A stretch of DNA of 23,770 bases, from positions 1 through 23,770 of the forward strand of contig JAHFQD010000002.1 of assembly GCA_023266455.1 (NCBI GenBank), written 5' to 3'. Shown here one piece after another: positions 1 through 23,770 of this stretch. The first letter of the stretch is position 1; every line of letters starts with the position of its first letter. Source of the DNA: Candidatus Muproteobacteria bacterium (GTDB lineage Bacteria > Pseudomonadota > Gammaproteobacteria > Acidiferrobacterales > Sulfurifustaceae). The translations under genes were made by a program, and so were the position numbers. The notes beneath the pieces are model-generated. The model was not told the origin of the DNA, ran no database searches, and worked only from the letters and a program-made list of their open reading frames with translations.

Positions 1-792
1 GAAATCTTTATTGCCGAGACTGTGTCGCCATAGGTAATAGGGAATATGGCGCGCGTTAAAGTCTCCAATCGACTCGTCGGGGTGCGCTCGTAGAAATGCT
101 ATTTGGTCGAGCGTCGGTATGTCTTCGAGAGCGATATAACCGCCATCTTCCAGGCCGCTAAGGATATTTCTTAAAACAATTTCCCGGATCGGTTCTGGGA
201 AGTGATACAGCAAGTTATTGACGAGAATAAGTTGAAATCCGCCTTCTAGAGCCGACTCGAGTAAATCTTGGTGTATGAAATCGACATGACGACGGAGCGC
301 CGGTATCGGTTGTACGGTGTCATAACCCGTCTCTTCGGCGTTCCAAATAAAGTATTCCCGATAAGGCAGCATTTTTTGAAGCGTTTCCGTGTCGGGCGCG
401 CCATACGACGCGTTGACATCGATTGCCAGCTCTACCATGTCCAGATTCGAGTCGATGCCGATAACGTGGAAGTCGCTCATGCCGTGCCGTAGCGCTGCGG
501 CGGTCAAGCTGAATGCTTCGAGTCCTTCGGCTGATCCGACACTGGCGACGAGGACGGCTTCGCCGTCTTCGATTTCGGTAGCTATCCGCGGCATCAGTTC
601 GCGCGCCGAAAGAACAATATTTTCTTCGCGGAACCAACCGGTAATCGTCAGTCTTCGCTGATTTCGGGCAAAGATTTTTAATAGTTCGTCAGCGTCTGTC
701 TGCGGGTGTTCGCTCTGTAGTTCGACGAATCGTTCCCGGGTTTCGGCGCCCCATGTTTCTTCAACCGCCCGTTCGATATCGGAGAGACGGCT
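1..792 (-). other. CheR-like methyltransferase domain, reaches the window edge (residues 7660-7923)
   Basis: CheR enzymes methylate glutamates of chemoreceptors. Elements follow in family order: helices (DIERAVEETW, ADELLKIFARN), then LTITGWFREE (family: lTinxTxFFRd), the motif I region AVLVASVGSAEGLEAFSLTA (family: sAGCSTGEEPYSLAm), HVIGIDSNLDMVELA (GtDId-x-x-x-L-x-x-A), REYF, LRRHVDFIHQDLLE (family: v-x-F-x-x-xNL), FQLILVNNLLYHFPEP (family: fDlIfcRNVliYF) and LRNILSGLEDGGYIALED (LkpGGyL). The cofactor loop is altered (SVGSAEG for the cysteine and TGEE motif), so activity is uncertain. The chain continues past position 1. The target would be expected to be a glutamate side chain if the family function is kept, which pairs interestingly with the deamidase domain upstream. 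Confidence 0.7.
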
Positions 793-3700
793 CGCGCCAT
801 CATTCTCGTTTTCTGCGCGTCGTCCCGAGATGGGATGTTCTTCCGGTTTATCCGACGCGCCACCAAGCGTTGACCACAGCGGTTCGACGATGCCATTCGC
901 TCGGATAATGACGCCGATGGCGCTGATGCCGGCGATGCCTTTAACGCCTTTAACAGGACGAACCGGCAACCATACTTGATGCGTTTCATTCCAATAGACA
1001 AATAAATCGGTGAATTCGTCTTGAGGCAACGCCGCCATCTCGGCGTCACTGAAGGTAATTGGATCAATGGCATCGGAGGAGGTTGTCCATTGACCTTCCA
1101 GGTTTATCCATTGATTGCCCCCAACGAGTAGCGGCGACGGATCGCTATGTGCGACGTGTTCGTGTTTGACTAGCTCGACATATTTACCGTTGCTTCGAGG
1201 ATCCACGACGAATCCTATCGATACGGCGAACTCTAAAAGATTTTCAGAGTCGCTTAGGTCGAAAGTAAGAAATCTTCCTCTTGGCGACAGCCAATTGAAT
1301 ATTTTTCGTAGCCAGACCCGTTGTGAGCCAAGTGGTTCTCCATAGGCGAAGATATTCCACGCGGAGATAATGCGGTCGAAGCTCCCTGCCGGAAAATTAG
1401 CTTGCTGCATAGTGACGCGAAGTAGATGTCCGCTTTCTAGCAGCGCGATCAGATCGGCGTCGAGTTCATCGAGCTTCGCGCCGTCGATTTTTGGCTGCGC
1501 GTGGTATTGCACTAAATCCGGAAGTGCGGGATCGATGCCGACGGCGGTGGTGATGCCGAATCGATGTGCATCTCGTACAAATCGTCCTTTTGGGCCAGTG
1601 GCGATATCTAATATCCGCAAGCCGGGAACGAAGTCGTTCAGAACCGCCGGTGGGATTCTTCTGGGACCGAAGAGTCCAGGTTCGCCATTGTCGTCGGCGA
1701 AGATGCCGCGATTGGTGAGTTCGTACGTCAATTCATCCCGCAGCCAGCGTGCGGATAGTAATTGCGGGTTCCGTTTTTCAATCGGAGTCAGATGTGTGCC
1801 GAGTAGAGGAATATCCGGTACGAGTTCTCCCCATAGCAACGCCGTTATCTCGCTGGAATCTATAGATCGTCCTGTACCAATATCCAGCGGTGTAAGTCGA
1901 GCCGCCGTTATCGAAACCGCGATCTCATGGAATTGAACGCCAAGGTTTTCGAAGTGGCGTCGTGCGATGTCGAGAATGGTTCGTTCATCGAAATGGCTGA
2001 CGCGCACGACATGATCACCGCCGTCAATCGCGGTGGTCATGTCCACCAGCATTCGATGTCGGATGACGGCGTTATTGCCGCTTCTCGGCACATACATCAC
2101 CGGTTCCAACCTAACACGCGCGTGGAATCTCGAATCTCCCACGACAACGAGTGAGATCCGTGTCGCGCTTTGCGCTTGGATTTCAACCGTGCCGTCGATG
2201 GTATGAATCGGGAAAGTCCCGTGCAAAGAATAAGGCTCTCTCCCTGCGGAAGCGTCGTTAGTGATGCGATCCGAGACGCGATTGGTGGGCAGATCCCCGG
2301 AGCGTCCGGATTCGGCGTGGTCATCATCATCTCGACCGGGCGTGTCTTTACCTGGGGAGTCGCCGTTGACGCTATTGGTGGCGTTGAGATTGTTTTCCGC
2401 AGTTACCTGGTGTCGATCGTCGCCGGTTCCGCCAATCGTGCGATCGTTCGACGAGGTGAGCGTAAGGCGCTGAGTCGTCGTGCCGTTGAACTCGCCAGCG
2501 GCGGCGCCGGTTTGCGGAGTGGGGTTGTTCGTCGCGCCGACGGAAACGGATTCGCTCGCATCGCCTTTACCGCGTCCACCGGTGGAACGTGCCCCGGGGC
2601 CGGTTTTGCCGCGTTGATTCGGAGGGCGCAGGGCGACCGCGCGAGGCTTTGTTCGACGATCGCGGCCGGTGCGCATGGTTTTGGCGCGCGCCGCTAATGC
2701 TTCGGCGATGGCTTGATCGGCTTGAAGATTATTTAATGCGCTCAGACGGATCTGGTTCGCCAGCGCAGAATCCATTGTGTCTGCGAAAGCGATGTCGCGC
2801 ATGGCGCCGCAGCCGATTTCGTGCATGGTCTGCGCGAGGAATTGCCCCGCGCGCGCAACTGACATGTCGCCGAGTTCGAAGGCGGAGACGAAAAGGCCAT
2901 CGCCTGCTTCGTGCAATTGCAGACGTGTGCCGGGCGCGTCGGGCGTCGTGGCAACGATATCCGAGCCGACGAGCAGTTCGATGTGCGAGAACGGAGACGT
3001 ATCGAGTGTTGCATGGTCAATACGGTTATTCGTGTCGCGCGGCGCGGAAGAATCAACTTTGTCTGACGGCGCACGGTCGTCGTCGGCACTCCGCGAGTCA
3101 TGTTCCGATTGCTGTCCCTCACGGTTTCCGCCCGACTCGGTGTCGGTTCGCAAGGCGTCGCTACCCGACGGCGGCTTATCGGTCGGGGCTCCATCGTCGT
3201 TCGGATGGCCCCGCGGCGGTACGTCGGCGACGATGATACCGGCGTCGTCACCCAATCTGCCGCTGGCTTCGCGTACCAACTCGATCAATGCATTCGCGGC
3301 TTCCTCTGCGTTAGGAAGACTCGCCGCGCGATTGATCTGCGCGTCATAGTCGGCAAGGGCGTCGGCATTTTGGGCGAGTCGGGCTCTTCTTCTTTCGTAA
3401 GCTTTCCACCAGCCGTCTGTCATTAATAAATAACGCGCGCCTTCTGCTGGCAGTGGCATCACGGGACTGTAGTAATCGTTATTGGTTCGGGTCGGGCCGC
3501 GGTCGATCTTGTTGGAGAGATCGCCGTCGGGTGTTTCTTGCGTGGGGATAGTGCTGACGTGTTGCAGACCATCGCTTGTGACTTCATACATGCGCGAGTT
3601 GCCGATCTGCACGGCCATCCATTCGCCGCTTTGAGGGTCGATGCAAAGCGCCAGGAAGGTCGTCGCCGAGAGCATGTCTAGCGGCTCTTCCAACTCCTCG

Positions 3701-6700
3701 TTTTTTTGCTGCATAACGGCGCGTTTCGCGGCATCGACTGCCTCTCGCGCCGCCTGCGGCATCGAGTGGCCCTCGGCGCGCAACACTATATAAGTATCTC
3801 CAGCCATCATCGCTACTAACGCGCTGGTCTCGCCGCCATCCAACTGCCCACCGACACCGTCGGTAATGATGAGGATTTGACCATCGGTGTATACGGAATC
3901 TTCCGTCTCGGCGTGGTGATATCCAGAAGGTTCGGTGACGGCGGCGAAGGAGATCGGGCTGATCGCTAATGCGTTTCTGTCGGCGGCGGACGGGCGCACG
4001 GTCACCGGTCGCTCGATCGCGCCCGACAATTCATCTACGAGATTCGCCGGGAACGCGGAATTGTTAATGATGATTTCCGTAATGCTCGGGTCGTCGATAA
4101 CGTCCGCAATAATTTCCTGAACTTGCTCGTCGAATGAAATCTGATTCGGATCGATCGCTTCGACGACATAACTCGTCCCGTGTCGTTCGCCGATGCGGGT
4201 GGGTATTACTTCCGCCATAAGATCGGGAGCGGTTGCCAGTCGAATGCGGAATGTCGCGATAATGGCCGATTCGATCGGCTTGCCGTTGGTATGGCGGTAG
4301 AACTGATCCGATTCCGGCGTGAAGGCAGAGGGGTCGTAGATACTGATAACCGGCTGCGACGACGGACTGCCGGTGTCGGGATTGGTCAGCGCGTATTCGA
4401 ACGGCGTGGTTTCGCCGTAGCCTAATAGTGCTCGGTATTCTGTCAGTGTTTGCGCGAAGAGACTGTCTTCGCCACCGGTTGCTGTGCTGGCGTCGTAACC
4501 CGAGACCAAGAGATTTTCGTCGTATACACCCAGTTCTCTAAGCCTGGTTTCGATAACCTCAAGTAATTCTTCGTTATCTAGAAAATCTTCCTCTTCCGAT
4601 AAATAGAATTCGCGAGGTGCAGATTGTCGTCTCGCGGCGGCGGCGACACGTTCCTCGATGGGTTGATAGCGATACCTCGCTGCCACCGCATCGTCGGTAA
4701 ATGTTATTTCTCCCCTAGCGCCGCGCGCGATCTCCCGCGCGATAATCTCGACGTCCGATAGAATCGTATCGTCGATGGAAAGGTCGGATCGAATCTGGAC
4801 CGATACGGAATAACCGCCATCATCTGTTCGTCTTACTTCTAGCAGCGCGAATTCCAGAATCTCGTGTTGGTCCGCATTGTGTATCGGCGTATCGCTGTCG
4901 GGATCGTTTCTTACTCCATAGGTTCGCGTTTCTCCCGGAGCGAGCTGTGCCAAGTCAGCGATCAATTCCGATGCGGCAATAGGTGCTTGTGCGTTATCGA
5001 CGGCGCCGCCGGCAACAGTAGGTAGCGTCCCGTCGTCGGGTCGAGCACGAATTGCCAAAGCGACATATCTATCAAGCGCTCTAATAAGCTGAACCCGTTC
5101 TGTACCGGTCGCGCGCGTGCCTTCTATCCAGAAATCGCCGATATCCGTGGGCAGCGACTCGCCTGCCCGGAATCCACGGGCAAGCACGATGATCCTGTGG
5201 TCAGCTGTATCGGTTAATCGATAGCCGATGTTATTCGGAAGAAGCTCAATAGCGGCGAGGTGGGTAGGATCGAACGCCGCTAGAGACGATCCGACAAGAG
5301 CACCGTTTGTCGGAGTGGTGATCACACTGCTCGCTCTTCTTGCAAGCTCGACGCGAAGCTCGGCCAACACCTCCGTCAGAAATTCCTGTTCATTCGACGG
5401 ACGCCGTTTTTGTCCATAGATGTAACCCATCGAGTCGTGCAATGCGACGCGCGGTTCCGAGGTGGCGATGTTGTAAAACAGGAATTCGGGATCGTATAGC
5501 GAAACGCCGCTGTCGAGCAGGGCGATGACCGCTTCGATATCGCGTGCGCTTTGTTCGGTCATCGACGCTAGCAATTCGAGCTTTCTTAACGGGTCGCTCC
5601 ATACTTTGCGCGACAGCAGCGTTCGGTATAGATCGTAGATAACATGTGGCGTGCCATCCGGCCCATAGAACACATCCGACATCTCGGTTGTGTGCACGCC
5701 GAATTGCCGCAGCTGTTGACCCGTCCAACGCTCTTGAGCCAATAAAACGGCAGCCAGCAGTTTCGTGAAATTTAATTGGGTCTGAGGAGTAGTGATCGCT
5801 TTATTGGCGCCGAACTGGCGTACCTCTTTTACTTTGCCGCTGCGATCGATTCCGAGCGATCGTTGATTCAACCAACGATAGAACGGTACTTCGACTTCGG
5901 TGCCATCGCCATCGAGGTATACGAGACGGCCGTGGTTGTCGGCGCCGAGATGAGGTCCAAAGGCGATGTTCTCGAATGCCACGCCCGCGGGCGGTTCCCA
6001 AAGTCGTAGTGCAGGGCCTGGCGGCCGTTTTGGAAATCCCTCGTCGTCTAGCTCGCCGCGGGCGGCTGAGATTGCTCTGTCGAGTAGCAGGGTATCCGCT
6101 GGGCCGAGCGGTTGATTTTCAAGAAATTCGGAACCGCCCGGGACCCATCGGAAACCAAGCGCGAGTTGTCCGTGGACGTCGACATTCAGTGTGAAGTAAT
6201 TTGAATTAATACCAGTGCGAATGAGCGCATCGCGCATGGCGAGGAGCTCGACGATATCGCTTTCTTCAGCCATCTCTCGAAGATCGATGGGAATTTCAAT
6301 GGGATTATTCCAGCAGTAGGCAAAGGGTTCTATGACGATACCGATGTTTCGCCCAACTCGGATCGGACCGATTGGCCGCTGTACCCGCACGCCGAGTTCG
6401 GCGAGTCGATCGGCTAAGCGATTGAACTGGGCGATATCGCGCGTGAGGTTGAGGCATGACACAACATCGAAGTCGTTCGAACTGAGAATGAGCCCTTTCC
6501 CTTCGAAAGTACGGATAGTGAACGGTGTGCTGCTATAGGCCGACGAAAATACTATCGGTCCAAGCATCCCTTGTACCGGGACAAGCCACGGCGCATCGTC
6601 CGCATCGATCCAAATAAGATTGAGTTGATGCGCGATGAGTTGACCGGTCGAGACGATATCCGTGCCAGGGAGCGGCAACAGCAAGTCTAGTTTCGCGGGG

Positions 6701-15700: not shown

Positions 15701-18700
15701 CGCCAGGTTAACGCCGCCGCGGTCTCCGCCGAGTCGCCGAACATTTGGTGCGTTCCAGGTACGGTGCGCCAAGGTTGTATTTGCGCGCGGCCAGAGGCGA
15801 AGGCGTAATGATCGAGTATTAAATCGCCTAGATCTTGGGTCTGAAGATCGACGACATGATACGTATCGTCGACGATGGCGATCATGTTCTCGGAGTGACG
15901 CTGCGCGTGTGCATGCGTTTCCGTTACAGATTCCCATAATTGTCGCGCGATCAACGGCGCGACTTCGTGGGCAAGCCATTGTGGCTGTCCGCCGTGAATG
16001 GCAAAAATACTTTCGCCAAGCTCGCTCAAAGCGAATCCCGGATCGGTTACGGTGTGCAAGATCATCGCGCGATCGCCGGGGCGATAACCGCGCGCCGCAA
16101 CCGGTGGCTCGCGCCATAACGCGGTTATTTCTTGATCTCCAATCTTCAGTACATAACCAGCCGATTCTCGCGTGAATCCTGAACGCCCAGCGAGCGCTTC
16201 GCTCGCATGCACCGCCGCTTCGACGTCTTCACCGGTTAGCGGTCTGGCGTCGTCCTGCCCATAAAGACCGCGTCCCGAAAATTTCAATATTTGTGGACCG
16301 ATCGGAGTGTCAGAGACGATTACGCGAAGCGAACTCAACATGGCGCCTTCGTCGAATCCGCTCGGTCGCGGAATTCCACTTGTGCCTCGATCTCCAAATA
16401 ATTCGTTAAGAAGCGCGGCGTCCGTTTGGTTGATGTAATGCAAACGTAAACGGATGAGACCGTTCGGTCCGGCGAACGGGCTGGCGGCGAAATTTCCGAA
16501 TGCGGTAAATTCTCCGCCGACCCGGACAATGTCTTGCAGAGAAACGTCCCAATACGGACTGAAACCCATGCGATTTGCCGCCGCCCAGCCGGAGAATCGC
16601 AACTGCATGTACTCCCCGTTCCAGTCTTGTTGTAGCCAGGCGTAGCTGGAGAGATACGACTCATACGCCGCAAGTACTGCGGTGGTTGCGGTTATACCGT
16701 CGGCGAGGCGGGGGAGTATTGATGCAACGCCACCCAGCGGTGCAACGACGGCGGCTTGTGTGGGGACGACGATATCGAGAAGCGCTCGGAGTTCTTCGGA
16801 TAGATCAGCATGTCTATCGAGATATCGAGCGTCCATGAGATCGTCTGCATCCGACGCCTCTAGATTTTCCAGTCGTTTTAGAACGGCGTTAACGCGTGCC
16901 GCGTGTTCTAAAGGTGTGATGCCGTTCACGCGACGACCCGGTATGTAGCCGTCGCCGTCTTGATGCAGCGGATCTTCTCCAAGACGAGTTTCCACAAGAC
17001 GAGCACCGGGGTTGTCTTCCAGTAGTTGTGTTACCGGAACGGGTTCATCGTGCAACGTCAACTCCAGCGCCATAATGACTTCGCTACCGTCACGCATACG
17101 AACGCGCATAGTCGCTACGACGTGGTAGTTGTCGACCTCGGTAGAATTCTCGGGATCGCGCGAATCGATTAGCTGTAGGGCTACTCCTTCCGCCGGGAAA
17201 ATCCAAGCCTTGCCGGCGATGAGTCCTCGCTCGCTCATTTCATGGGCAATGAGTTCAGCGCGCGCGTAACACCCTTCGTCGGGATAGGCTTGCGACAATC
17301 CTTCGATCGTTCTTAATTGCCTAAACAACGCCATCGTGTCCGCCATCGACATGATGCTTGGAGACGGATAGGGCTCGTCTACTGCGCCTCCACGCACAAC
17401 GGGTAATCGACTTGAGACTTGTCGTCTATGCGGTATTAGCACCGGGCCATCGATGCTTTGAATTAACTGGAACCGATGCACTTCGCGATCGAACCGTGTC
17501 CCCGAATTTTCAACCCACACTTCGGCTAGATCCGTGGGGACGCCGTATAAGTCGGCTCTTATTACCGGCACGAAGGTCGGCTGTCCGTCGACATCGAGTA
17601 ACCGCACGCCGCCGTTTTCCGGATTCGGCGTCAGCGTGTGGAATTGCGTGAGATCGATAGGTGTGCTGGCGACCCCATGTGGAATAGAAACGGTGTGGGG
17701 CGCGGATAGATCAGCGGCGTGCGTTCGGCGCGCGGCGATCGCGGCGGTTGCGACGCGTGCCTCGATCGGTCGATAGCTGAAGCGGGTGGTCTGGGCGTCG
17801 TTCGTGAACGCGCTTTCTCTATTGGCGTATTCGGCGATTTCGCCGGCGACGGCGTCTACGCGGGCGCTCAGCGCATCGTCGATCGGCGCCGTCGGAACAA
17901 TGTTGATCTCGTAGCGGCCATCCGTCGTGCGCGTCGCCGACAGGACGGCGAACTCCAAGATCGGTTGACCGCCGGCGCCATCGATGCGCGTCGTGTCTGG
18001 CGCATCGCGGACGACGGAGAAATATCGTGTTTCGCCCGGTGATATGCCATCGAGGCGACGGATCAACTCCGCGGCCTCGATTGGGGAATGAATTTCATCG
18101 ACCGCACCGCCGCCGCGAGGCAGTCGTACAGATACGCGGGCGATATCGAGAAACTGCTGTAACGCAGTTCGATAGCGATGTGCTGTGCGTTCGATCGTAT
18201 TCAGAACAGCTAAAGCCGATGCACTCTGCGCTTGCATGAGATAGCTGACCATGGCCGTCGTCGACGGTGGGAGGGGTCTGACATCCGGGACTTGTAGCGC
18301 GACGTTTGGATGGGTAGCAATCTCCCACATGAGGTCCGTGTGTCGCGCGATGGTTTGCGTTTGATTTATTCGATGGCCTAAAAATCTTTCGGCGACGACA
18401 CCAGCCATTCCCAAATCAATGGCGTTAACTAACTCGCGCGCCGCGCCGCGCGCCAGCGCCGCTTGGCGGAAGCCACCGGCATCCGCCCAGAATTGCGCAT
18501 AGAGCGCGGGGATCGTTTCAATCAACGGTGATAGTGCGTCCGCGGAATTCTCACCGAGAATGTAGATTTGTCCGTCTCGATAAAATGCGTGCCGTTGGAG
18601 AATCTCGTCGTCTCCCAAGAGAGTAGCGTCAGACGTCTCCGCTCGATAGATATCCATAAACTCGGCGACGCTTTCGCATAGCACGACATGTTCGAACGGC

Positions 18701-21700
18701 GACGCCGCGTTTCGCGGAAGATAGATGTCGAGAAACGCGCGCATGGCGCTCTCTATCAAAGACAGCGACTCCATGAACCGATCCGCTGAAGCACCTCGAT
18801 AATATTCCGACGGTTGATTCGGCAATCCGGCGTCGGGTCGAGAAAAAGCGGTTTCGGCATTTAAGCGCGATCGTGTCTGTTGTGCCGTGCTATCGGCGTA
18901 CAACGCATTGGCTTGGGCGCGAGTCCACGCGGTGACGCTTTCCAGTAAGCCCGGATACGCGAGCAATAAATCATGGAGCGCTCTCGCGGTAGCAGGCATT
19001 AGTGGCGAGATGGTTGGGCTATCGGAGATAGCACGCCTAATTCCTTCCGGTATGGCGTTCCTGGTTGTTCGCAACTGAATGACGGTTCTATTTCTGATGT
19101 ACTCGATGCAAGCGTTCGCCAGACGCGCGACCTGAACTCTCGCTTCTTCCGCCGTTACGTGTCGTGGGATGCCGAATCGTTCATGAAACGTGTTAATGGT
19201 GTCCCGACCGTCTTCTCCGATCGGATCGATTGCGGCGATTTCTAGTAAACCGATCCCCGTCGTCGCTCTGGACGTTGCGCCGGTAGCCTCCGTCAAGAGT
19301 TCTCTTAGTAAATCATCGGCCACCAATATTCCCGTTATCCGTTGAGGGTACTGGCCCGCTCTTCTGATGATCAGCGTAGAAGTGGCGTCATTGGTTTGAT
19401 CGCGAATGATGGTGGTGCATAGTTCTGTGATGGCTGCCTCATTTCGTGTTAGCAGCGCGTCAAACATTGCTTCCGCGCCGATGATGCGTTCCACACGCAG
19501 CATGACGCGCATGATCCGCATCTCCTCGGGCGTGCCGGACAGCGTGTGGCCCATGATGGTAGCGGCGAGGTAACGCCCGCTACCTCGCAGCACGAGATTG
19601 ACGATGTGTTGTTCGGGAACGGAACGGATCGTCCTCGCGTTGGCAGCGTCTGCGCGAGCACGCGCTTCTAAATCGGAGGCAACTAACAGGCTATCGACTT
19701 CATTGTATTGTTCGGAAACGGTGCGGGGTGTCCGCACGTTGGCAACGCTCGCGCGAACACGCGTTTCCAAATCGGAGGCAACTAAGAGACTGTCGATTTC
19801 ATTCGCTAAGCCGGCGGGGTCGTGTTCCAGCGTTCGATTGACATAAAGACGCCCGTTATGGAAAAACAAGCGCGGTACGTTATCGGCGTCGCCACCCGTT
19901 TGAATCCATTCTCTTTGCAATAGTTCAGTCGTTAGGAACGAGATGCTTGCCGACGAATTGGTTCCATCGCTTGCCGGCCCCGGACTCCAATGCGCACCGG
20001 GCGCGGCGCTTCTGCCGGGCGGTTTGCGCGGCAGTTTGACTCCTAATACGTTCCCCGGTGTCTCAAGATTGTGGCGGAAAACGGGGCGCGAAGCGGTGAC
20101 CGGCGGCGTGACAGCACGATCCACCAACGCAGCAGCGGGTAGTCCACCGGAATTCCGTCCTCGACGCGGCAGCAGCGCGGGACCATCGATCGTTAAGATC
20201 AAACGGAAGCGATGCTGTTCGACGTTATAGTGTTCTCCCGAATTTTCTATCCATATCTCCGTCATGCTCCGGGGCAGGCCGTACAGGTCGGCTCTTATTA
20301 CTGGCACGAAGGTCGACTGCCCGTCGGCGTCGAGTAATTGCACGCCACCGTTTTCCGGATCGGGCACGAGCGTTTGGAATCGCGTGAAGTCGATCGCAGA
20401 TCGGTCCACACCATGCGGGATAACGATACTGGGTTGCGTCGACGCTGGTTCATAGCGCGCCGAGAAAATTTCTTCGAAGACTTCTCGACCGATTGTGTGA
20501 AGCGCCGCGTTAAGCGCCGCAATAATCCGCAAATCTTCTGAGGTCACGATCGTGCGATAACGCGCGCTCAGCAACTCAAAACCTTTATCCCGGACGTAAT
20601 AATCTTTTCTGGACGATGGTGGCGCATCGATGTAGGTCCGCAGCCATTCTTCGGCGCGGATTCTCACTGTCGGTGATAATTGTTGGATCGATTGCCAGAG
20701 TTGCGCGAGCGCTTCCGTCATACTTTCGCGCATGCGCGAAAGCAGCGGTTCGGAAAGCTGGACTTCGTTCCCGTCCTGAACGATGTCGGTCGAATCGACA
20801 TATCCCGAGCCGTCTCTCGTGGATGTTAACTCGTCCACTAATTGGGCGGTTTCGAGAATGACAACGCGCAAGTCATTTGGATTTTCGATTTCGGGTTGTC
20901 GATAGAGCCACGAAATCTCGTTCCCCGTCGGGAAGAACGTATTCGACGGTTGCAGTCGCCACTTCACATAACCCAATACCGTTTCGACGAACGCCGGAAC
21001 GACGCCGGATGCGATTTCCGTATTGCGGGCGCCTTCCCAGCGCGCGGCGTCCGTGATGACGTAACCACCGGGGCGCAGATGCGTCAGGACGCGATGATCG
21101 AATGGCTCAAAAAACTGAAACAGATGGTTCATCATCATGCTGCTGCGCAGCCAATGTTCGTAATAGACGTCGTAGCCGGGTTCTAATTCTGGCGGCCAGA
21201 AATCGGCGTCGAACGCATCCCATCGATAAAGCACGACCCTGCGCGGTTTACCGCGCAGTTCGAATTCGAAGCGAGTGCGAGGCACTTGCTCGATGGCGCC
21301 GTCTACTCGCGTTAGCGCGACCGTGTCGCCGACCGGCGCATGGGTCGCGACGCCGCCCGCGATTTCAATGAGACTGGCCGACATTCCATCTGGGTCGACG
21401 ACGACGACGATATCTGCATCGCTCGCAAAAATAGGTTCGAGGAATCGGCTTGCGCCGCCGGGGATGAACGCAGTCAGACGTCGACCGTTGGGATTAATCC
21501 GGGCCTGGATCGCTAAGAGATGACGAGGATTGGCGGATTCCGCGATCGAGACAAAGGCCGCCCGTTCACCTTCCGTCAATGGATAGTTGGTCGGGTCGTC
21601 GAGTCCGCTCCGTAGTTCATCGGCGATATTTCTTGGCGAACCCAGATGATCTTCTGTTTGGTCGGTAGGGGTGTCGTCACCGCCTTGTCGATTCGACGAA

Positions 21701-23770
21701 GCGCCGTCGCCTTCATGGTCGGTTTGAGCGGATATGTCGTTCGGTGCAGCGCGTGTCGAGACGTCGCTTTTTAATTCTTGCTCTCCAAGAGGCTGTTCTC
21801 CGAAGAGCGCATCGATAATTGTTCGTTGCGTTAAAGCGACTAAATCCGAATGGGAAATTTCGCTCAGTTGAGGATCCGGCATTTGCCATCCATAGTCGCG
21901 CAGCAACGCCGGATGCAAATAGGTAAAAAGAACAGATCGTCCTACCGTCGTGGGGTGGCGGAGTTCTAATTGTTGGCGTTCGCTTTCGCCAGCGACAATG
22001 AGGATGTCCGCTTCCGCATGGGTAATGATGAATTGTTCCGTTCGGAAGTCATTAATGATTTCCGCATCGACGCCCGCTGCGGCGAGGGCGTCTTGATACT
22101 CAGGGAGAAGGGGAGCACGCCATCTTCCCGCGCGATGGGCGATAAGTCCCGCCGATTCCACGTGGATCAAGTCTTGTAATCCAAGCGCTTGTACTTTTTG
22201 CCGAGCTAGTACGGCCGGCACGGCGCTGCGATGAATACCGCCTTTGCAAACGAAGCAAATTCTGATCGGCGTGCCGGTTGCTATCGCGGTTTGGATAGAG
22301 TTTCTTACCGCATGTGCCGCAGGGGTGAGACCGTTCAATAATGGGATGTCGATCTCAAACCTTTCTCTATCTACCGATCCGCCTCCGACCCGCTGATAAA
22401 GAGCGACGATTTTCCCTTCGTGCACCGGTGCTTCAAAAGGTACGTCGGCAATTCGTGGCCGCGGCGTCGATCCATCGATCACCCAGATTTGATTGCGATG
22501 GGTAGGAAGCGATCTGTGGCGTCCGAAACCGAGAGCAGAAATATCGCCAAGGTATCGGCCATCTGAATCGAATGCTTTCACAACGCCCTGATTTGGATCA
22601 TCGACGATGGAATGCAAGTCGTCGGCAGTGACGGCGCTCGTTCTTGTTTCGGCGATGATGGTTTCTAGCGTCGATCGCCTTGGTTCTGGCACAACGGCTT
22701 GTGTGGTTAGGTTGTCGATTCTTACCGGAAAAATATTTCCACCTGGGTAAATACGATACGCGTGAACGAGGCGATTGTTTCGCGCTGCATATACCCAACT
22801 GCCGGGGGCTCCATCTGGTTGTCTCGCATCCGCGCTGGATCGCAGTCTGGCCGCTTCTTGCGCTTCGGTGAAATTGCCGTAAGTCGTGGTTTCGAGGGGG
22901 ATGTCGTTGGCGTATACGTAATCCGGAGGCAACGGGATTTCATAGAACGTAAAGTCCGTTCCTTCCGGACCAGACCAGTGACGCATGTTTGTATAGGGGA
23001 CTGTCTCGGTCTGTGGAGCACGTCCTGTGTAGTGCGCGAAATAAAAATCTTCGGCTGCCGCGATTTGGTCGGAAGAGAGTGCACTTGTCGGTACTGCTTT
23101 GCGTGCCGCGAACCGGTTTGCATTGTTTTGACGCGCTCTTTTAAGGAACAACATCAGAAGTTGCATCGCTTCCGCAAATACCTCCGCTTGCGGACGCGTG
23201 GAAGTCATTAAATCGGCGAACTCGACTTCTCCTCTCTTGCCGTATATCAGCTGTATGTCGCCGAGCCCTCTCAACGCATTTGGACCTTCGGCTTTAAGGA
23301 GAGTGATATTTTCGATTATTTGATCGACGCTCAACTCGTTGAGCCATGGGCAATCTCTAATAGCGACCGGGACCGTCCCATTGCTGATGATGATGTCTTT
23401 CGATCCTCCTTCTCTTAGATCGTAAACAATGATGTCGACATCGAAGATTTGATCGGGGCCATAGGCATTGAGGACATTGTAACCTCTTTGGCGTTGCGAT
23501 CTCAGAATGATCGGCTCTCGATTGAAAGAGCGTTTGGAGACAGAGTGCTCATCGCCCATCCACGAACGGTTCCGGAACCCGACGATGTGACCGTTCGCGA
23601 ACATGAATACACTCTTGTACAGACCCGATCCTTTGAATGGACCGATTAGCACTTGTGGTGGAACCGCCAGGACGGTTCCCGTTTCATCCGCGACGACGTA
23701 GTTACCGTCGTCGGTTTTCCATGGCTGATTATTTTCAAAGAGAAGCGAATAAGGAGATTCCCAAGGCTGC
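1..23770 (-). CDS. Giant multidomain protein, internal fragment of one gene (both ends missing)
   Basis: A single minus-strand reading frame is open across the whole window: 7,923 codons without a stop, read on plus-strand triplets starting at position 1. Neither start nor stop codon lies in the window. Recognisable domains occur in this same frame from end to end, including an LMW-PTP, a protein glutaminase, two serine glutaminases, a GNAT, a PP2C phosphatase and several methyltransferase-like folds. That rules out chance openness and shows that no frameshift is present. I saw no signal peptide (the N-terminus is absent) and no convincing membrane segment. Cysteine is sparse. Acidic Gly/Ser/Asp/Asn/Thr-rich linkers separate the domains. 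The gene is neither NRPS nor PKS: no carrier, adenylation or ketosynthase motifs appear. Most likely it is a giant effector-like or surface polyenzyme of a bacterium, perhaps Omnitrophota; function and phylum are inference. Confidence 0.95.
793..1179 (-). other. Region between the two terminal methyltransferases (residues 7531-7659)
   Basis: A short beta portion (NQWINLEGQWTT, FVYWNETHQVWLPVR), a glycine/isoleucine-rich run (GIAGISAIGVII, too short and too glycine-rich for a confident membrane helix) and an acidic polar end (EHPISGRRAENENDG). No family recognised. The last part is a linker into the CheR-like domain. Confidence 0.4.
1180..1692 (-). other. Class I SAM-dependent methyltransferase domain (residues 7360-7530)
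   Basis: Motif I is LRILDIATGPKGRFVRDAHR (residues 7384-7403): strand, then a D-x-x-x-G-x-x-G loop, then a helix. A second strand ends in TAVGIDPALPDL (acidic residue for the ribose). Later come SFDRIISAWNIFAYG (motif IV strand; family: FDlI-x-s-x-n-x-l) and WLSPRGRFLTFDL (turn and strand 5). Motif I lacks the second of the usual three glycines, but the fold is convincing. Substrate unknown. A region of about 380 bases downstream separates it from the CheR-like domain. Confidence 0.65.
1693..2244 (-). other. Unassigned region preceding the fourth methyltransferase (residues 7176-7359)
   Basis: The first half is beta-rich (ATRISLVVVGDSRFHARVRL, NNAVIRHRMLVDMTTAIDGG, DHVVRVSHFDE), a possible small beta domain. 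The second half contains helix ILDIARRHFENLGVQF and a segment PQLLSARWLRDELTYELTNRG that leads into the methyltransferase and may be its N-terminal helices. No catalytic motif found. Confidence 0.4.
2245..2670 (-). other. Long low-complexity linker (residues 7034-7175)
   Basis: It begins with a basic part (TKPRAVALRPPNQRGKTGPG) and becomes rich in Gly, Asn, Thr, Ser and Asp (for example TAENNLNATNSVNGDSPGKD, then GRDDDDHAESGRSGD). This is the longest clearly unstructured stretch in the fragment, separating the PP2C half from the terminal methyltransferases. The basic start may contact nucleic acid or acidic surfaces, but that is a guess. Confidence 0.7.
2671..2994 (-). other. Short folded segment between two disordered linkers (residues 6926-7033)
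   Basis: Contains strands HIELLVGSDIVATTP and TRLQLHEAGDGLFVSAFEL followed by helices (ARAGQFLAQTMHEIGCGAMRD and ALNNLQADQAIAEALAARAK). It resembles a small alpha/beta domain, but I cannot assign it. The last helix grades into a basic stretch (MRTGRDRRTKPR). Confidence 0.4.
2995..3213 (-). other. Long acidic linker after the PP2C domain (residues 6853-6925)
   Basis: Asp, Ser, Gly, Arg, Pro and Thr dominate (for example SEHDSRSADDDRAPSD) and large hydrophobic residues are nearly absent. Probably disordered. Confidence 0.65.
3214..3960 (-). other. PP2C-family (PPM) Ser/Thr phosphatase domain (residues 6604-6852)
   Basis: PPM phosphatases use two metal ions held by conserved aspartates. The motifs run in family order: HAETEDSVY (family: NEDs), ILIITDGVGGQLDGGETSA (DGxGGh-x-G-x-x-AS; Asp6637, codon 3859-3861), LSATTFLALCID (the AxTTa strand), VQIGNSRMYEV (vGDSRaY), RYLLMTDGWW (LLcSDGl; Asp6785) and GDDAGIIVADV (DdatvivV; Asp6842). 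The metal aspartates in the DGVGG, TDGWW and DDA motifs are intact. The GDSR motif reads GNSR, a change near the active site. Length, about 250 residues, is normal. The typical VTRDHS segment is replaced by an unrelated polar loop around residues 6684-6705. Probably an active or near-active protein phosphatase, but its substrate is unknown. Confidence 0.85.
3961..4629 (-). other. Region between module C3 and the PP2C domain (residues 6381-6603)
   Basis: Begins with a strongly acidic helix (FYLSEEEDFLDNEELLEVIE). Several strands and loops follow (for example PVISIYDPSAF, IIATFRIRLA, ERHGTSYVVEAID), then a short Rossmann-like piece: a helix EQVQEIIADVI, a strand ITEIIINNSAFP, a helix NLVDELSGAI and a strand PVTVRPSAADRNALAI. 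The last part may be an N-terminal extension of the phosphatase. Family not recognised. Confidence 0.4.
4630..5016 (-). repeat. Repeat module C, copy 3 (residues 6252-6380)
   Basis: Starts with AGGAVDNAQAP and contains SELIADLAQLAPGETRTY, VRNDPDSD, ILEFALLEVRRTDDGGY and YRYQPIEERVAAA. It is followed by an acidic segment and the region leading to the PP2C phosphatase. Confidence 0.8.
5041..5160 (-). repeat. Truncated relative of module A preceding module C3
   Basis: ESLPTDIGDFWIEG and the following TERVQLIRALDRY align with the second half of module A2 (GVPTDLAEVWVEN, then HRFQLIQSID). The first half with PENGGV and VPVIRADLYG is not recognisable, though LARGFRAG may correspond to IRADLYG. The helix LIRALDRYVALAIRAR also resembles the helix before module C1. 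The region seems to be a fused or eroded A-C unit. Confidence 0.45.
5161..6780 (-). other. Unassigned alpha/beta stretch, possibly kinase-like (residues 5664-6203)
   Basis: Sequence order is faintly like a protein-kinase or aminoglycoside-kinase N-lobe: strands TIRTFEGKGLILSS, a helix AQFNRLADRLAELGVRVQRP, then IGIVIEPFAYCW as a possible hinge, and later a helix and strand with GINSNYFTLNVDVHGQLALG. The invariant Lys, HxD and DFG motifs are not found, so this is not a functional kinase by sequence. The second half has TKLLAAVLLAQERW, GPDGTPHVIYDLYRTL and a helical tail EQEFLTEVLAELRVELA. Family unknown. Confidence 0.3.
6781..8397 (-). other. Unassigned alpha/beta stretch (residues 5125-5663)
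   Basis: No family recognised. The first part (residues 5125-5260) is beta-rich, with ENFYEISFRP and DVVTLEFQTS. The next part alternates helices and strands, including RAVRERGLGRELIARGFEP, ALREMPRIDPTQLLRMVISE and RVSFEGRGAFVRVTMSRSHG. A Pro/Arg-rich spacer (GDGDEPRPRPRGPR) follows, then a helical region ending in LVNYLLLAALRYPRTRRYFE and a short beta portion. The strand pair with RVSFEGRGAFVRVTM, followed by GLEIGNLQPGSAVPILLAAL, has the look of a folded enzyme-like core, but no catalytic signature is evident. Confidence 0.4.
8398..8889 (-). other. Helical extension after the metalloprotease-like module (residues 4961-5124)
   Basis: Continuous amphipathic helices rich in Glu, Arg, Leu and Ala (for example IIDLVETQLSQAHAELARLD, RIELEQRIVALDTARGLID). 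Likely coiled coil. A similar helical stretch follows the degenerate copy B1, so the helical region may belong to the same module. Confidence 0.45.
8890..9159 (-). other. HELDH metalloprotease-like module B2 (residues 4871-4960)
   Basis: The helix MMTHELDHLRS supplies an HExxH zinc-binding motif (His4920, Glu4921, His4924; codons 8998-9012). The segment IVFEGGANHIAQLL, 33 residues on, gives Glu4957 as a possible third ligand of gluzincin type. Before the motif come DWIRNGGDPDHIPRAF and NGHIYM, a beta element shared with the decayed copy B1 (19762-19947). The arrangement of a short strand, then an HExxH helix, then a Glu helix is common in small bacterial and toxin metallopeptidases, but I cannot name the family. 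If active it could cut host or target proteins, or the giant chain itself. Confidence 0.5.
9264..9390 (-). other. Acidic/proline linker (residues 4794-4835)
   Basis: Asp, Gly, Asn, Lys, Pro and Arg dominate (for example SGGDNDISPNDGGDKPRPVW). It joins the GNAT-like domain to the metalloprotease-like module. Confidence 0.55.
9385..10302 (-). other. GNAT-like N-acetyltransferase domain (residues 4490-4795)
   Basis: GNAT enzymes transfer an acetyl or related acyl group from acyl-CoA. The CoA-binding motif A is visible: ALSIKVAEQSRGLGVSALMI (residues 4625-4644), with the Q-x-RGLG-x-(S/A) pattern of the pyrophosphate loop and the helix after it. The next element YDRLYAPVRPNEK matches the strand and beta-bulge where GNATs read L-x-V-x-x-x-N, including the Asn. 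Upstream strands (LTLVCFAED and TQVIALGLLT) and downstream GGRIVAIAP, EQWSKFTGR and GVWVVH fit the rest of the fold. At roughly 300 residues it is longer than a minimal GNAT (about 150), with insertions around residues 4580-4620 and 4665-4700. Substrate unknown; protein or small-molecule acetylation are both possible. Confidence 0.6.
10381..10758 (-). repeat. Repeat module C, copy 2 (residues 4338-4463)
   Basis: Starts with AGGGVDNPQAP and contains SASELVSDLATLSP, VRNDPDSD, ILEFLLLD, DGTY and YRYRPIEERFAD. It is closest to copy 3 (4630-5016): both share VRNDPDSD, NAD, ILEF and YRPIEER or YQPIEER. It sits directly before the GNAT-like domain. Confidence 0.8.
10855..11322 (-). other. Class I SAM-dependent methyltransferase domain (residues 4150-4305)
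   Basis: The most canonical methyltransferase in the window. Motif I is TIVLDVGGGNGINAD (residues 4172-4186), followed by helix IRTLGPSR and the strand VIGIEPDADQLELA, whose acidic residue would bind the SAM ribose. Further on are SVFVLDM (motif IV-like strand) and MRVGGYVVTSC (the LkPGG-like turn and strand 5). Length, about 155 residues, fits a minimal methyltransferase core. The substrate is unknown. It is joined by a Pro/Asp-rich linker to the glutaminase pair on one side and by PPPTIAGGGVD to module C2 on the other. Confidence 0.75.
11470..12480 (-). other. Serine glutaminase domain, copy 2, degenerate pseudoenzyme (residues 3764-4100)
   Basis: Clearly homologous to copy 1 over its length: KLFTYVLAQRLNVL, GRFLQARGNYGD, LAHNGISPWTGERVID, the GAYEVSGEY segment (Tyr4037) and LTTVSQRLGWSRYG all align. 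Key residues are lost. SISK has become GIYK (Gly3862 in place of the nucleophile, Lys3865 kept), NAGA has become DAGA (Asp3902), and KSGIGGG has become MIVGGNS. Conversely, at the position where copy 1 has His, this copy has Tyr3985. A Ser/Thr/Asn-rich insertion containing a 60-bp tandem repeat sits just before the altered SISK position. It cannot use the normal mechanism and is probably structural or regulatory, possibly pairing with copy 1 (glutaminases oligomerise). Confidence 0.8.
12226..12345 (-). repeat. Tandem duplication of a 60-bp (20-residue) unit inside glutaminase copy 2
   Basis: Two adjacent units (12286-12345 and 12226-12285) read T(I/V)GN(S/T)-x-STY at their starts. The DNA string taagtcgacg occurs in each, exactly 60 bases apart (12260 and 12320). 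The unit seems to be copied from the VGN strand that precedes the catalytic Ser in an intact glutaminase. The expansion adds about 40 residues just before the degraded nucleophile position. Confidence 0.75.
12514..12660 (-). other. Polar linker between the two glutaminase domains (residues 3704-3752)
   Basis: Ser, Gly, Asp, His, Glu and Thr dominate (for example GSDDTSGSPDSGTQSGGHSD, then a Thr-rich tail). It separates the tandem glutaminase domains and is likely disordered and exposed. Confidence 0.6.
12670..13560 (-). other. Serine glutaminase (GlsA-type) domain, copy 1, mostly intact (residues 3404-3700)
   Basis: GlsA-type enzymes hydrolyse free L-glutamine to glutamate and ammonia, using a beta-lactamase-like Ser-x-x-Lys. 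The domain is close to the usual length of about 300 residues and keeps the family landmarks: PGLKSLSDMAPDQFGMTLV (family: iPeLa..dpd.fGia), the nucleophile SISK (Ser3464, Lys3467), NAGA (Asn3509), DRN before the central helix, LARNGISPWTG, GTYDGAGE (Tyr3634) and KSGIGGGFVG, then GNS near the end. One active-site position differs: where the family has YF-x-QCS, the sequence is HSLLCS, so the tyrosine that contacts substrate is replaced. Catalysis is therefore plausible but not assured. It is followed by a Ser/Gly/Asp/Glu-rich linker and a second, more decayed copy. Confidence 0.85.
13735..14412 (-). other. Second divergent methyltransferase-like domain (residues 3120-3345)
   Basis: The segment CLYGGAGTDVSKCLLAT (residues 3148-3164) looks like a glycine-rich motif I followed by a helix, and the strand DLYFVSNAP (residues 3168-3176) follows as expected. 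After a helical insert come two strands (TVTVDWNDGGLRIRFPW), IRFIAADIT with an acidic residue typical of motif III, a helix, GVDFYFQSAG as a central strand and loop, and a final helix and strand SVRRYFITDDF. The layout is that of a Rossmann-type methyltransferase, but I cannot name the family and the C-terminal strand pair is short. Function unknown. Confidence 0.45.
14425..14967 (-). other. Long polar linker, probably disordered (residues 2935-3115)
   Basis: Rich in Asp, Glu, Arg, Gly, Ser, Thr and Pro, with no continuous hydrophobic core (for example DDRLQDDQARDAEDVTETD). A short central part (LGNIPTLRDLATRRSGRHDV) may fold on binding. It precedes the second methyltransferase-like domain. 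Confidence 0.6.
14968..15399 (-). other. Helical, probably coiled-coil region (residues 2791-2934)
   Basis: Heptad-like charged helices without Pro or Gly breaks, for example EQDAALAARDANLTANAVRF, DAAHALDVARS and VSALQMELLRLRTAWTRIAT. One short beta element (RGERLYLIRRGQPLIH) interrupts them. No catalytic motif. It likely spaces the upstream alpha/beta region from the long acidic linker that follows. Confidence 0.5.
15400..16632 (-). other. Alpha/beta region, tentatively IucA/IucC-siderophore-synthetase-like (residues 2380-2790)
   Basis: Several short patterns appear in the order found in IucA/IucC (NIS synthetase) proteins: SLRVIV followed by ILKFSGRGLYG (family: SLRT then a Lys-containing strand), an ALWREPP strand (family: LRE-x-P), and ESVTETHAHAQRHSENM followed by a strand and VDLQTQDL (family: EaHgQN, then RD). 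The match is patchy: the family's EaH-x-QN spacing is broken by an insertion and the final Arg-Asp is not seen, so this may instead be a divergent kinase-like fold. If related, activity is doubtful. Residues 2290-2380 upstream are mixed helices and loops linking it to the protein-glutaminase domain. Confidence 0.3.
16915..17382 (-). other. Protein-glutaminase (protein glutamine deamidase) domain (residues 2130-2285)
   Basis: Protein glutaminases convert protein-bound glutamine to glutamate with a papain-like Cys-His-Asp triad. The nucleophile motif is present: DEGCYARAELIAHEM (residues 2164-2178), close to DGCYARAH of the Chryseobacterium enzyme, with Cys2167 (codon 17269-17271). A YHVV strand provides His2216, 49 residues later, and LHDEPV provides Asp2241, 25 residues after that. 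The spacing is slightly longer than the roughly 41 and 20 of the characterised secreted enzyme. Before the motif is the expected helix and loop (TMALFRQLRTIEGLSQAYP), and after it the strand GKAWIFPAEG. Same-fold relatives are bacterial toxins and effectors that deamidate host proteins. All triad residues are present, so the domain may be active. The neighbouring domains, also largely protein modifiers, support an effector-like role. Confidence 0.8.
17419..17691 (-). repeat. Repeat module A, copy 2 (residues 2027-2117)
   Basis: Second copy of module A (see 20161-20430). It carries IPHGV, the PENGGV turn, LLDVDGQ, TFVPVIRADLYG, WVENSG and IDGPVL in the same order. It lies immediately upstream of the protein-glutaminase domain, joined by a short linker ending in RGGAVDEP. 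That linker echoes the start of the C modules. A shortened relative lacking the first half appears at 5041-5160, where SLPTDIGDFWIEG aligns with GVPTDLAEVWVEN. Confidence 0.8.
17746..18114 (-). repeat. Repeat module C, copy 1 (residues 1886-2008)
   Basis: A module of about 125 residues present three times in the window. Common pattern: GG(G/A)-x-VD(E/N) near the start; SP-I-E-A-A-E-L-I or its variant; PGET; a VR(D/N) strand; ILEF-x2-L; a DG-x-Y strand; then an acidic helix and the terminal (Y/F)-x-Y-(R/Q)-P-IE. This copy has a helix before it like the one before copy 3 and leads straight into module A2. No enzymatic motif is apparent. It could be a small alpha/beta binding domain or a linker unit recruited repeatedly in front of catalytic domains. 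Confidence 0.8.
18115..19609 (-). other. Long alpha-helical region without recognised family (residues 1388-1885)
   Basis: About 500 residues of amphipathic helices with few glycines, for example EEMRIMRVMLRVERIIGAEA, RALHDLLLAYPGLLESVTAW and AALARGAARELVNAIDLGMA. It follows the degenerate protease-like module, much as a helical extension follows the intact copy B2. Around 18541-18600 the string HAFYRDGQIYILGENS interrupts the helices and resembles the NG-x-IY beta element of the B modules, so a third decayed copy may be embedded. No catalytic motif is visible. Scaffold or helical-repeat function is a guess. Confidence 0.4.
19610..19807 (-). repeat. Tandem duplication of a 99-bp (33-residue) unit
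   Basis: Two adjacent units, 19610-19708 and 19709-19807, are similar in DNA and protein. Both carry the 16-base string aaatcggaggcaacta and start with tgttcgg. In protein they read E(I/V)DSLLVASDLE, then A-x(n)-N-(V/A)-R-T and (V/P)-x-EQ. The period is exactly 99 bases, so frame is preserved. The units are predicted amphipathic helices, suggesting expansion of a helical hairpin. The last helix of the degenerate protease-like module is itself the first element of the N-terminal unit. Confidence 0.85.
19762..19947 (-). other. Degenerate copy (B1) of the metalloprotease-like module (residues 1275-1336)
   Basis: This stretch aligns residue by residue with module B2 (8890-9159). Landmarks are SFL, then W-I-x2-GGD-x-D-x2-PR-x-F, then NG-x-(L/I)-Y, and finally the helix that in B2 carries HELDH. 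Here that helix reads NEIDS, so both metal-binding histidines are gone although the Glu and Asp remain. It cannot bind zinc in the HExxH manner and is best read as a pseudoprotease or structural copy. It continues into the two 33-residue repeats, whose first unit begins with the same EIDSLL segment. A third, fainter relative may lie at about 18500-18600, where RDGQIYILGENSADAL keeps the NG-x-IY-like pattern. Confidence 0.65.
20161..20430 (-). repeat. Repeat module A, copy 1 (residues 1114-1203)
   Basis: A roughly 90-residue beta-rich module of unknown function, present again as copy 2 at 17419-17691. Shared landmarks in order are IPHGV, a Phe/Gln segment followed by PENGGV, LLD(A/V)DGQ, TFVPVIRADLYG, a WxENSG strand and IDGP(A/V)L. 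The DNA is also alike: around 20287-20315 and 17551-17579 a 29-base stretch differs at one position. This copy precedes the degenerate protease-like module B1, whereas copy 2 precedes the protein-glutaminase domain. Confidence 0.8.
20431..20889 (-). other. Helical region between methyltransferase-like domain and module A1 (residues 961-1113)
   Basis: Mostly amphipathic helices (LRVVILETAQLVDEL, LLSRMRESMTEALAQLWQSI, LNAALHTIGREVFEEIF) with short polar loops, one of them Asp/Gly-rich (residues 1004-1022). No family recognised and no catalytic motif seen. It may pack against the neighbouring methyltransferase-like domain, or form a spacer. Confidence 0.4.
20890..21567 (-). other. Degenerate class I methyltransferase-like domain (residues 735-960)
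   Basis: The order of elements resembles a SAM-dependent methyltransferase. A helix is followed by the strand and glycine loop RLTAFIPGGASRFLEP (motif I position, residues 764-779). A second strand ends in an acidic residue (ADIVVVVDPDG, residues 785-795). A later helix-strand element with LTHLRPGGYVITD (residues 895-907) corresponds to the usual LkPGG turn before strand 5. The motif I glycine signature is not canonical (PGGAS in place of xGxGxG), so cofactor binding is uncertain. About 80 residues inserted between the second strand and the LRPGG turn include an aromatic cluster (YDVYYEHWLR). Best read as a divergent or inactive methyltransferase fold. Confidence 0.5.
21640..21780 (-). other. 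Acidic disordered linker (residues 664-710)
   Basis: The stretch is rich in Asp, Ser, Gly, Gln, Thr and Asn with almost no large hydrophobic residues (for example EGDGASSNRQGGDDTPTD). It separates the phosphatase domain from the following methyltransferase-like domain and probably acts as a flexible tether or an accessible cleavage region. Confidence 0.6.
21799..22272 (-). other. Low-molecular-weight protein tyrosine phosphatase domain (residues 500-657)
   Basis: LMW-PTPs hydrolyse phosphotyrosine, using a cysteine nucleophile in a CX5RS loop near the N-terminus and a distant Asp-Pro acid. Both are visible. ICFVCKGGIHRS (residues 504-515) gives Cys508-x5-Arg514-Ser515 after a beta strand, matching the family loop VCxGNxxRS. 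About 120 residues later, MPDPQ (Asp632) occupies the place of the family's DP general acid. Between them are the typical VESAG segment (family: SAG after the first helix) and the strand ADILIVAG before the second half. The length, about 150 residues, is normal. Gly511 stands where the family has the loop Asn and His513 where it often has Cys, so activity is likely but not certain. Arsenate reductases share this fold, which makes phosphatase versus reductase open. Confidence 0.8.
22273..23770 (-). other. Unassigned N-terminal part of the fragment (residues 1-499)
   Basis: I recognise no family here. The first 130 residues or so are beta-rich with many glycines and aromatic residues, including the segments YVVADETG and FANGHIVGFRNRS. 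A helical stretch follows near residues 170-225, containing LLMLFLKRARQ. Next comes a Pro/Thr/Tyr-rich portion (residues 240-320), then mixed alpha/beta sequence leading directly into the phosphatase domain. The segment just before the phosphatase (residues 445-499, with ALYQRVGGGSVD and ERFEIDIPLLNG) could be an extra strand and helix of that domain or a separate small unit. No catalytic motif is visible. Confidence 0.5.

Follow-up and report, generated by a model that had tools for sequence, protein, structure and literature searches.

The window (the whole 23,770-nucleotide stretch of DNA that was analyzed) is the interior of a single open reading frame on the minus strand, with both ends of the frame beyond it. 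A six-frame stop count found no stop over 7,923 codons in the frame read from 23769 to 1 (1..23769, minus strand), compared with 227, 238, 309, 249, and 289 stops in the remaining five frames, where the longest open runs were 180–248 codons. At a stop rate of 3.3% per codon, the probability of a stop-free frame of this length is ~e^-267 (ln P about -267), which rules out an open frame arising by chance. A first-pass annotation, made from the letters alone, had described one frame of at least 7,923 codons, open throughout on this strand and with neither end in view, and the count agrees with it. Because the window is the complete contig C219 of its genome bin, the start and stop of the ORF cannot appear within it.

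The frame also continues past the contig edge. The final 35 bases of contig C319 match window positions 1..35 (minus strand) at all but one site, an Asn/Asp difference in the protein. All 1,605 codons of the C319 minus frame are open and in register with the window frame. The full product therefore exceeds the window, as had been expected. The single mismatch in this dovetail looks like strain variation, which would account for the assembler stopping there. The earlier suggestion to extend the contig until both ends were found succeeded in part: C219 and C319 combined cover 28,552 bases (about 9,517 codons) and still reach neither start nor stop. BLAST of window positions 22700–23770 against the bin found no contig extending past base 23770, a search with the far end of C319 found no continuing contig, and end overlaps among the bin contigs examined gave no further extension of the gene.

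The host genome and the integrity of the contig

The bin comprises 474 contigs and 2.36 Mb, with 76.75% completeness and 1.3% contamination. Giant genes of this sort had been associated in the first-pass annotation with Omnitrophota, a setting that the genome does not support. The glycyl-tRNA synthetase beta chain (GlyS) of the bin best matched Acidiferrobacteraceae, Sulfuricaulis metagenome-assembled genomes, and other Pseudomonadota at 50%–53% identity, with Acidiferrobacteraceae and Sulfuricaulis at the top (53%). A GlyS scan of named genomes, which retrieves solely relatives sharing short patterns with the query, gave no title naming Omnitrophota among the 80 loci kept of 102 confirmed. 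Moreover, giant-type genes in the bin adjoin pyrD or serS, and the window lacks transmembrane (TM) segments. On marker similarity, we conclude that the host would be placed in the Gammaproteobacteria in the broad sense, and we reject an Omnitrophota origin.

We also considered whether separate genes had been joined by misassembly or the contig had been binned from another organism. The bin is fragmented, and the tetranucleotide fit of the window (0.891) is close to the bottom of the bin range, which is 0.885–0.986 among 22 other contigs of at least 7 kb. However, a single frame stays open across 23.8 kb and on into C319, and the codon usage of the window correlates at 0.92 with that of ordinary ORFs in the bin (median for a single ORF of >400 aa, 0.89). 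In addition, giant-type frames on C323, C351, C51, and C388 share their contigs with ordinary-looking genes, and the tetranucleotide fit of C323 is likewise low (0.913). On C351, pyrD precedes the giant-type start, and the contig also encodes a heme lyase of the CcmF/NrfE type. C51, where a giant-type frame ends, bears serS and lolA, which both score above model cut-offs, along with a gene for a RarA-like ATPase that falls below them. We therefore regard an assembly or binning artifact as very improbable.

Domains and composition of the window protein

Recognizable domains had been reported from 22272 down to 1, in line with the Pfam families matched here between 22260 and 127; all features below are on the minus strand and are given in the order of translation. 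The chain contains a low-molecular-weight protein-tyrosine phosphatase-like domain at 21856..22260 (PF01451, 27 bits, cut-off 23.2), which retains the C-x5-R-S loop (FVCKGGIHRS) in an alignment to 2cwd over the loop (E 3.5e-4). Two copies of a repeated module, A, follow at 20137..20430 and 17401..17694 with 60%–62% identity to each other. Between them, at 19387..19956, internal similarity and a motif scan placed a module that has lost its HExxH motif; its relative at 8710..9165 is metalloprotease-like and keeps the motif as HELDH, with no Pfam peptidase match.

A second repeated module, B, has no assigned fold. Its first copy, at 17731..18120, was placed by alignment and profile search, and internal similarity additionally supports the copies at 10357..10791 and 4615..5049. 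The profile search found these three copies in the window, two in contig C316, and one cut copy in C374. A structural model of module B was fair (mean pLDDT 76), and its fold search against the PDB gave a best E of 0.06 and no match at 1e-3.

A protein-glutaminase (deamidase)-like domain lies at 17026..17331 (PF18626, 40.8 bits, cut-off 25); the one match of this region among PDB sequences, at E 0.83, was discarded. The stretch at 15448..16656 is a domain in common with contig C302 (residues 297–692; 29%–31% identity, E about 1e-34). Two glutaminase domains come next, and together their summed score exceeds the cut-off of the glutaminase model TIGR03814. Copy 1, at 12673..13482 (PF04960, 1.6e-66), retains the nucleophile Ser and the Lys of the SxxK motif in an alignment to 3agd. 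Copy 2, at 11479..12195 (PF04960, 1.1e-28, with PDB matches), is probably inactive because the nucleophile Ser is replaced by Gly, as read by eye in the translation (the best PDB match begins past the site).

Toward the end of the window, we found a SAM methyltransferase domain at 10963..11247 (PF08241, 27.5 bits, cut-off 21.2) with a close relative in C316, and a second at 1267..1611 (PF08241, 22.2 bits, cut-off 21.2). A PP2C/SpoIIE-type phosphatase lies between them at 3220..3891 (PF07228, 26.9 bits, cut-off 25; PF13672 under cut-off) and matches PP2C structures in the PDB at E 2.6e-6 and weaker. The last recognizable domain is a CheR-type methyltransferase at 127..642 (PF01739, 5.6e-14, 52.5 bits, cut-off 27). 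The window also holds 15 stretches that are poor in hydrophobic residues and enriched in D, G, S, and P; these are candidate linkers, and one of them, at 3007..3231, is predicted to be disordered. The best stretch of a PADLOC match to mad2 falls within the first methyltransferase region (residues about 4156–4277), and we do not take this match as a sign of defense function. Rfam gave no matches in the window.

The protein had been described as neither a nonribosomal peptide or polyketide synthase nor an adhesin of simple repeats, and our searches point the same way. No condensation, ketosynthase, or carrier domain was matched at E 1 in four overlapping pieces of the window, and internal repeats are few. 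Neither RTX repeats nor the C80 autoprocessing protease of MARTX/RTX toxins was matched in the pieces scanned.

The size of the chain and its metalloprotease-like motif could suit a giant surface or extracellular protein used for predation or attachment, as proposed for Omnitrophota giants, and accounts covering several phyla describe such giants as surface weapons or adhesins (PMC10066038, PMC12057145). One such giant is found in Velamenicoccus archaeovorus LiM (Omnitrophota, Velamenicoccia); it is 39,678 aa long and is described with 42 predicted TM segments (PMC10066038). Like the Omnitrophota giants, the window gene is a poorly conserved bacterial ORF of >20 kb (23,769 bases in the window). 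However, the window comes from another phylum and encodes many recognizable enzyme domains. The LiM giant and most Omnitrophia giants have multiple TM helices, whereas the window protein has none: no 19-residue stretch in its 7,923 residues reached a mean hydropathy of 1.8. No adhesin or carbohydrate-binding family matched the window at E 1, SAM-dependent enzymes would make little sense outside the cell, and the bin marker gene is not that of an Omnitrophota genome. A surface role is thus unlikely.

The window protein also differs in composition from the pooled ordinary ORFs of the bin. Its 7,923 residues include 97 lysines and 653 arginines (1.22% and 8.24%), compared with 3.89% and 7.47% in pooled ordinary ORFs (n = 281; bin ORFs of at least 300 aa, with open frames called by script). 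Cysteine is likewise scarce, at 0.24% vs. 0.88%. Lysine was at or below 1.25% in 9 of the 281 ordinary ORFs, and K/(K+R) was as low as in the window in 10 of them. When ordinary ORFs were resampled into sets at least as long as the window, none of 20,000 sets reached 1.22%, and the lowest value was 2.34%. The longest lysine-free run covers 937 residues in the window (residues 1250–2186; 17212..20022, minus strand), as opposed to 382 in the ordinary ORFs.

GC bias does not explain this scarcity, because GC3 in the window (0.59) is below the ordinary-ORF mean (0.66) and lysine codon choice is equal. The two glutaminase domains on their own lie close to the normal lysine range, at 1.6% and 1.9%, not far outside the 1.7%–7.5% of glutaminases at seven loci outside giant genes. 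An Arg-over-Lys bias is reported for toxin A chains that enter the host cytosol (PMC6471375), and loss of lysine is argued to blunt ubiquitylation of such chains (PMC6471375, PMC10665810). The window protein resembles AB toxins with lysine-poor A chains in this bias of the part that would act in the cytosol (PMC6471375), but it differs in size and architecture, and the B subunit and ER route of those toxins have no known counterpart here. The composition signature of the window points to work inside another cell.

Other giant-type genes in the bin

The window is one of several giant-type pieces. Seven contigs (C219, C302, C316, C319, C361, C374, and C391) were open end to end in one frame among a non-random 122 of the 474 contigs, and window pieces and C302, used as protein queries against the bin, had module relatives on C302, C316, C374, C406, and C361. 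One end of C316 has a possible start of module B (weak match, E 0.37), and C374 opens inside a module B copy, so these two contigs may adjoin. C406 holds an 892-codon frame after a frame change. At this change (L178, 1041–1075), a 357-codon frame open at its 5′ end stops at 1075, and the 892-codon frame opens in another register at 1041; the change may reflect either a sequencing indel or a real boundary between genes.

Two contigs contain giant starts. The frame that opens with an ATG on C323 reaches the contig edge after 3,612 codons, and that on C351 after 1,610 codons, so the bin has at least two giant-type genes. Frames entering at a contig edge close at a stop on C51 (after 899 codons) and C388 (after 1,432 codons). 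The C323 contig breaks within a repeat (L183, 2–112), where the last 37 residues (3576–3612) are identical to residues 2730–2766, which would account for the assembly gap in that gene. The window group and the C323/C351 group had no module in common at E 1e-3. In total, the counted giant-type pieces amount to 26,967 codons, or about 25,700 without C345, whose membership is doubtful. The C345 frame (L210, 2–3823) runs for 1,274 codons, is open at its 5′ end, lies on a contig of lower GC (0.49), and is possibly a further large effector-like gene.

The content of these pieces varies. The methyltransferases of the window, an acyl-CoA ligase-like domain at the C388 end, and glycosyltransferase domains on C391 would fit a megaenzyme that stays in the cytosol of the producing cell and builds or alters a small molecule. 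However, we judge this improbable, since no carrier, condensation, or ketosynthase domain was found in the pieces scanned and the depletion of lysine and cysteine would be left unexplained.

A module with an invariant His (SHQ) and Cys (AGC) is present on C302, C406, and C361 (L035, 175–870; L178, 1920–2609; L177, 1817–2476). By motif alone, it may be likened to a clan CD peptidase, possibly with an autoprocessing role. It had no family match, and hhalign to P0001, a 2,382-aa DUF4781 protein from another source, lent no support to the peptidase reading. Two matches of its alignment to PDB sequences at E 0.4 were discarded, as were the fold matches of its structural model, which was too poor to use (pLDDT 44).

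Outside the bin, a window piece was matched in 7 of 95 other genomes, always through the glutaminase only and in frames of 308–688 codons. Protein searches gave no match at E 1e-3 for window residues 3400–4500 (637 candidates scored) and none for C323 residues 1–1500 (1,966 scored). Profile scans confirmed none of 184 pattern-matched stretches in genome contigs (methyltransferase/module B alignment) and none of 15 stretches in viral contigs (module B). C323 and C351 pieces had no plasmid match by tblastn, NCBIfam gave none on either contig, and the C323 N-terminus had none among PDB sequences.

The C323 N-terminal part carries a hydrophobic segment. Together with modular, variable cargo that includes deamidase and protease-like modules, this segment could indicate a contact-dependent or otherwise secreted train of polymorphic toxins directed at other bacteria. 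Yet no Rhs, filamentous hemagglutinin, MIX, or VgrG family was among the matches listed for the pieces scanned, and the ubiquitin explanation of lysine loss would be left without purpose. We consider such a toxin train improbable.

DUF4781 N-termini, type III secretion genes, and possible delivery

The giant starts provide a link to known large proteins. C351 passes the Pfam model for DUF4781 (PF16013, 39.0 bits, cut-off 27.9), and C323 is 37% identical to its N-terminal part. C323 itself had no match to DUF4781 in Pfam at E 0.5 and is tied in through its similarity to C351 and P0001. Both contigs match P0001; when the C351 region was scored against 7,993 candidates, no other protein matched at E 0.01. 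Across 369 genomes of the class, a profile of the C323/C351 N-terminus matched nothing beyond the bin except for one marginal case (8e-4), which covers model positions 23–86, a poly-proline stretch included.

The bin also encodes type III secretion system (T3SS) components. On C324 (4.7 kb), sctT, sctU, and sctV are adjacent and score above the cut-offs of TIGR01401, TIGR01404, and TIGR01399, and the models for their flagellar counterparts stay under cut-off. Of 20 family genomes, the bin alone has SctV above cut-off, and two more match below it; 4 of 14 control genomes matched, none of them above cut-off. A published survey places a DUF4781 protein bearing a HopBF1 effector domain within T3SS clusters of Burkholderia cenocepacia (PMC12580581). 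The large DUF4781 proteins of B. cenocepacia and P0001 resemble the giant genes here in having a related N-terminus (C351 and C323) followed by further domains, with T3SS genes in the genome. They differ in being about 2,200–2,400 aa long, whereas the window gene, whose N-terminus lies outside the window, is longer than 7,900 codons.

Given these findings, we tentatively favor a reading in which the window protein is a T3SS-delivered multi-effector protein carried into a host cell, with a probability of roughly 0.47. By analogy with C323 and C351, the window gene would begin with a DUF4781-type N-terminus, and the T3SS machine of the bin would export its product. The linkers would allow the domains to unfold and pass through one by one. 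The phosphatases, glutaminase, protein-glutaminase, and methyltransferases might then alter host proteins or metabolites, with the SAM-dependent and phosphate-handling enzymes acting in the host cytosol. Lysine may have been lost because the cargo acts in a cytosol that contains ubiquitin, where ubiquitylation would be blunted. Delivery of this kind is consistent with the presence of enzyme types that depend on cytosolic cofactors (SAM, for example), with the lack of a TM stretch in the window, and with the scarcity of lysine in C323 and P0001 solely past the N-terminal part.

Other observations speak against delivery. The visible sequence of the window excludes the N-terminus of its gene and has no module in common with C323 or C351 (E 1e-3). 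The giant starts on C351 and C323 are not adjacent to T3SS genes, and the C323 start sits by a two-component system, as judged by eye; C324, which bears the T3SS genes, spans only 4.7 kb, and the window comes without flanking sequence. The lysine contrast between head and cargo is also uneven, and its cut points were picked after inspection of the data. In C323, lysine falls from 4.6% in residues 1–1,450 to 1.9% in the remainder, although part of this cargo is lysine-normal, and P0001 falls from 4.2% in residues 1–1,500 to 1.4%. C351, however, has no such contrast (2.5% in the first 1,300 residues, 2.6% in the next 310), and the giant-type end on C388 is lysine-richer at 3.6%.

Length is a further difficulty. 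The sole large effector whose length was compared is RipS4/SKWP4, a type III effector of 2,574 aa described as consisting of HEAT/armadillo repeats (PMC4617103), and the window chain is several-fold longer. The two resemble each other in the proposed delivery route and in being a very large single chain, but the window strings together diverse enzymes where RipS4 has repeats, and it is at least threefold longer. A bolder version, in which a gammaproteobacterium injects a megadalton chain from one gene of possibly >20,000 codons, with a DUF4781 head and dozens of host-modifying enzymes largely purged of lysine against host ubiquitin, is doubtful; its codon figure assumes that most giant-type contigs belong together.

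Both giant bacterial ORFs, in Omnitrophota and elsewhere, and large type III effectors, of which RipS4 is an example, are already known. What appears to be new is a gammaproteobacterial giant of many recognizable enzymes, strongly depleted in lysine, in a bin with DUF4781 heads and T3SS genes; our literature searches found no report of such a lysine-depleted gammaproteobacterial multi-enzyme giant. Giant bacterial genes have been a puzzle because their products show few recognizable domains. Here, the recognizable enzymes, the compositional signature, and a candidate machine for export allow function to be tested one module at a time. If delivery is borne out, the window protein would rank among the largest delivered proteins, the size of injected proteins would be raised several-fold, and lysine depletion would become a sequence marker of cargo domains in uncultured bacteria.

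Two other long frames were noted elsewhere in the bin. At 6077–9676 of C305 (L166), a 1,200-codon frame resembles a Cas9 by eye, and at 3–3212 of C348 (L213), a 1,070-codon repeat-rich frame appears autotransporter-like by eye.
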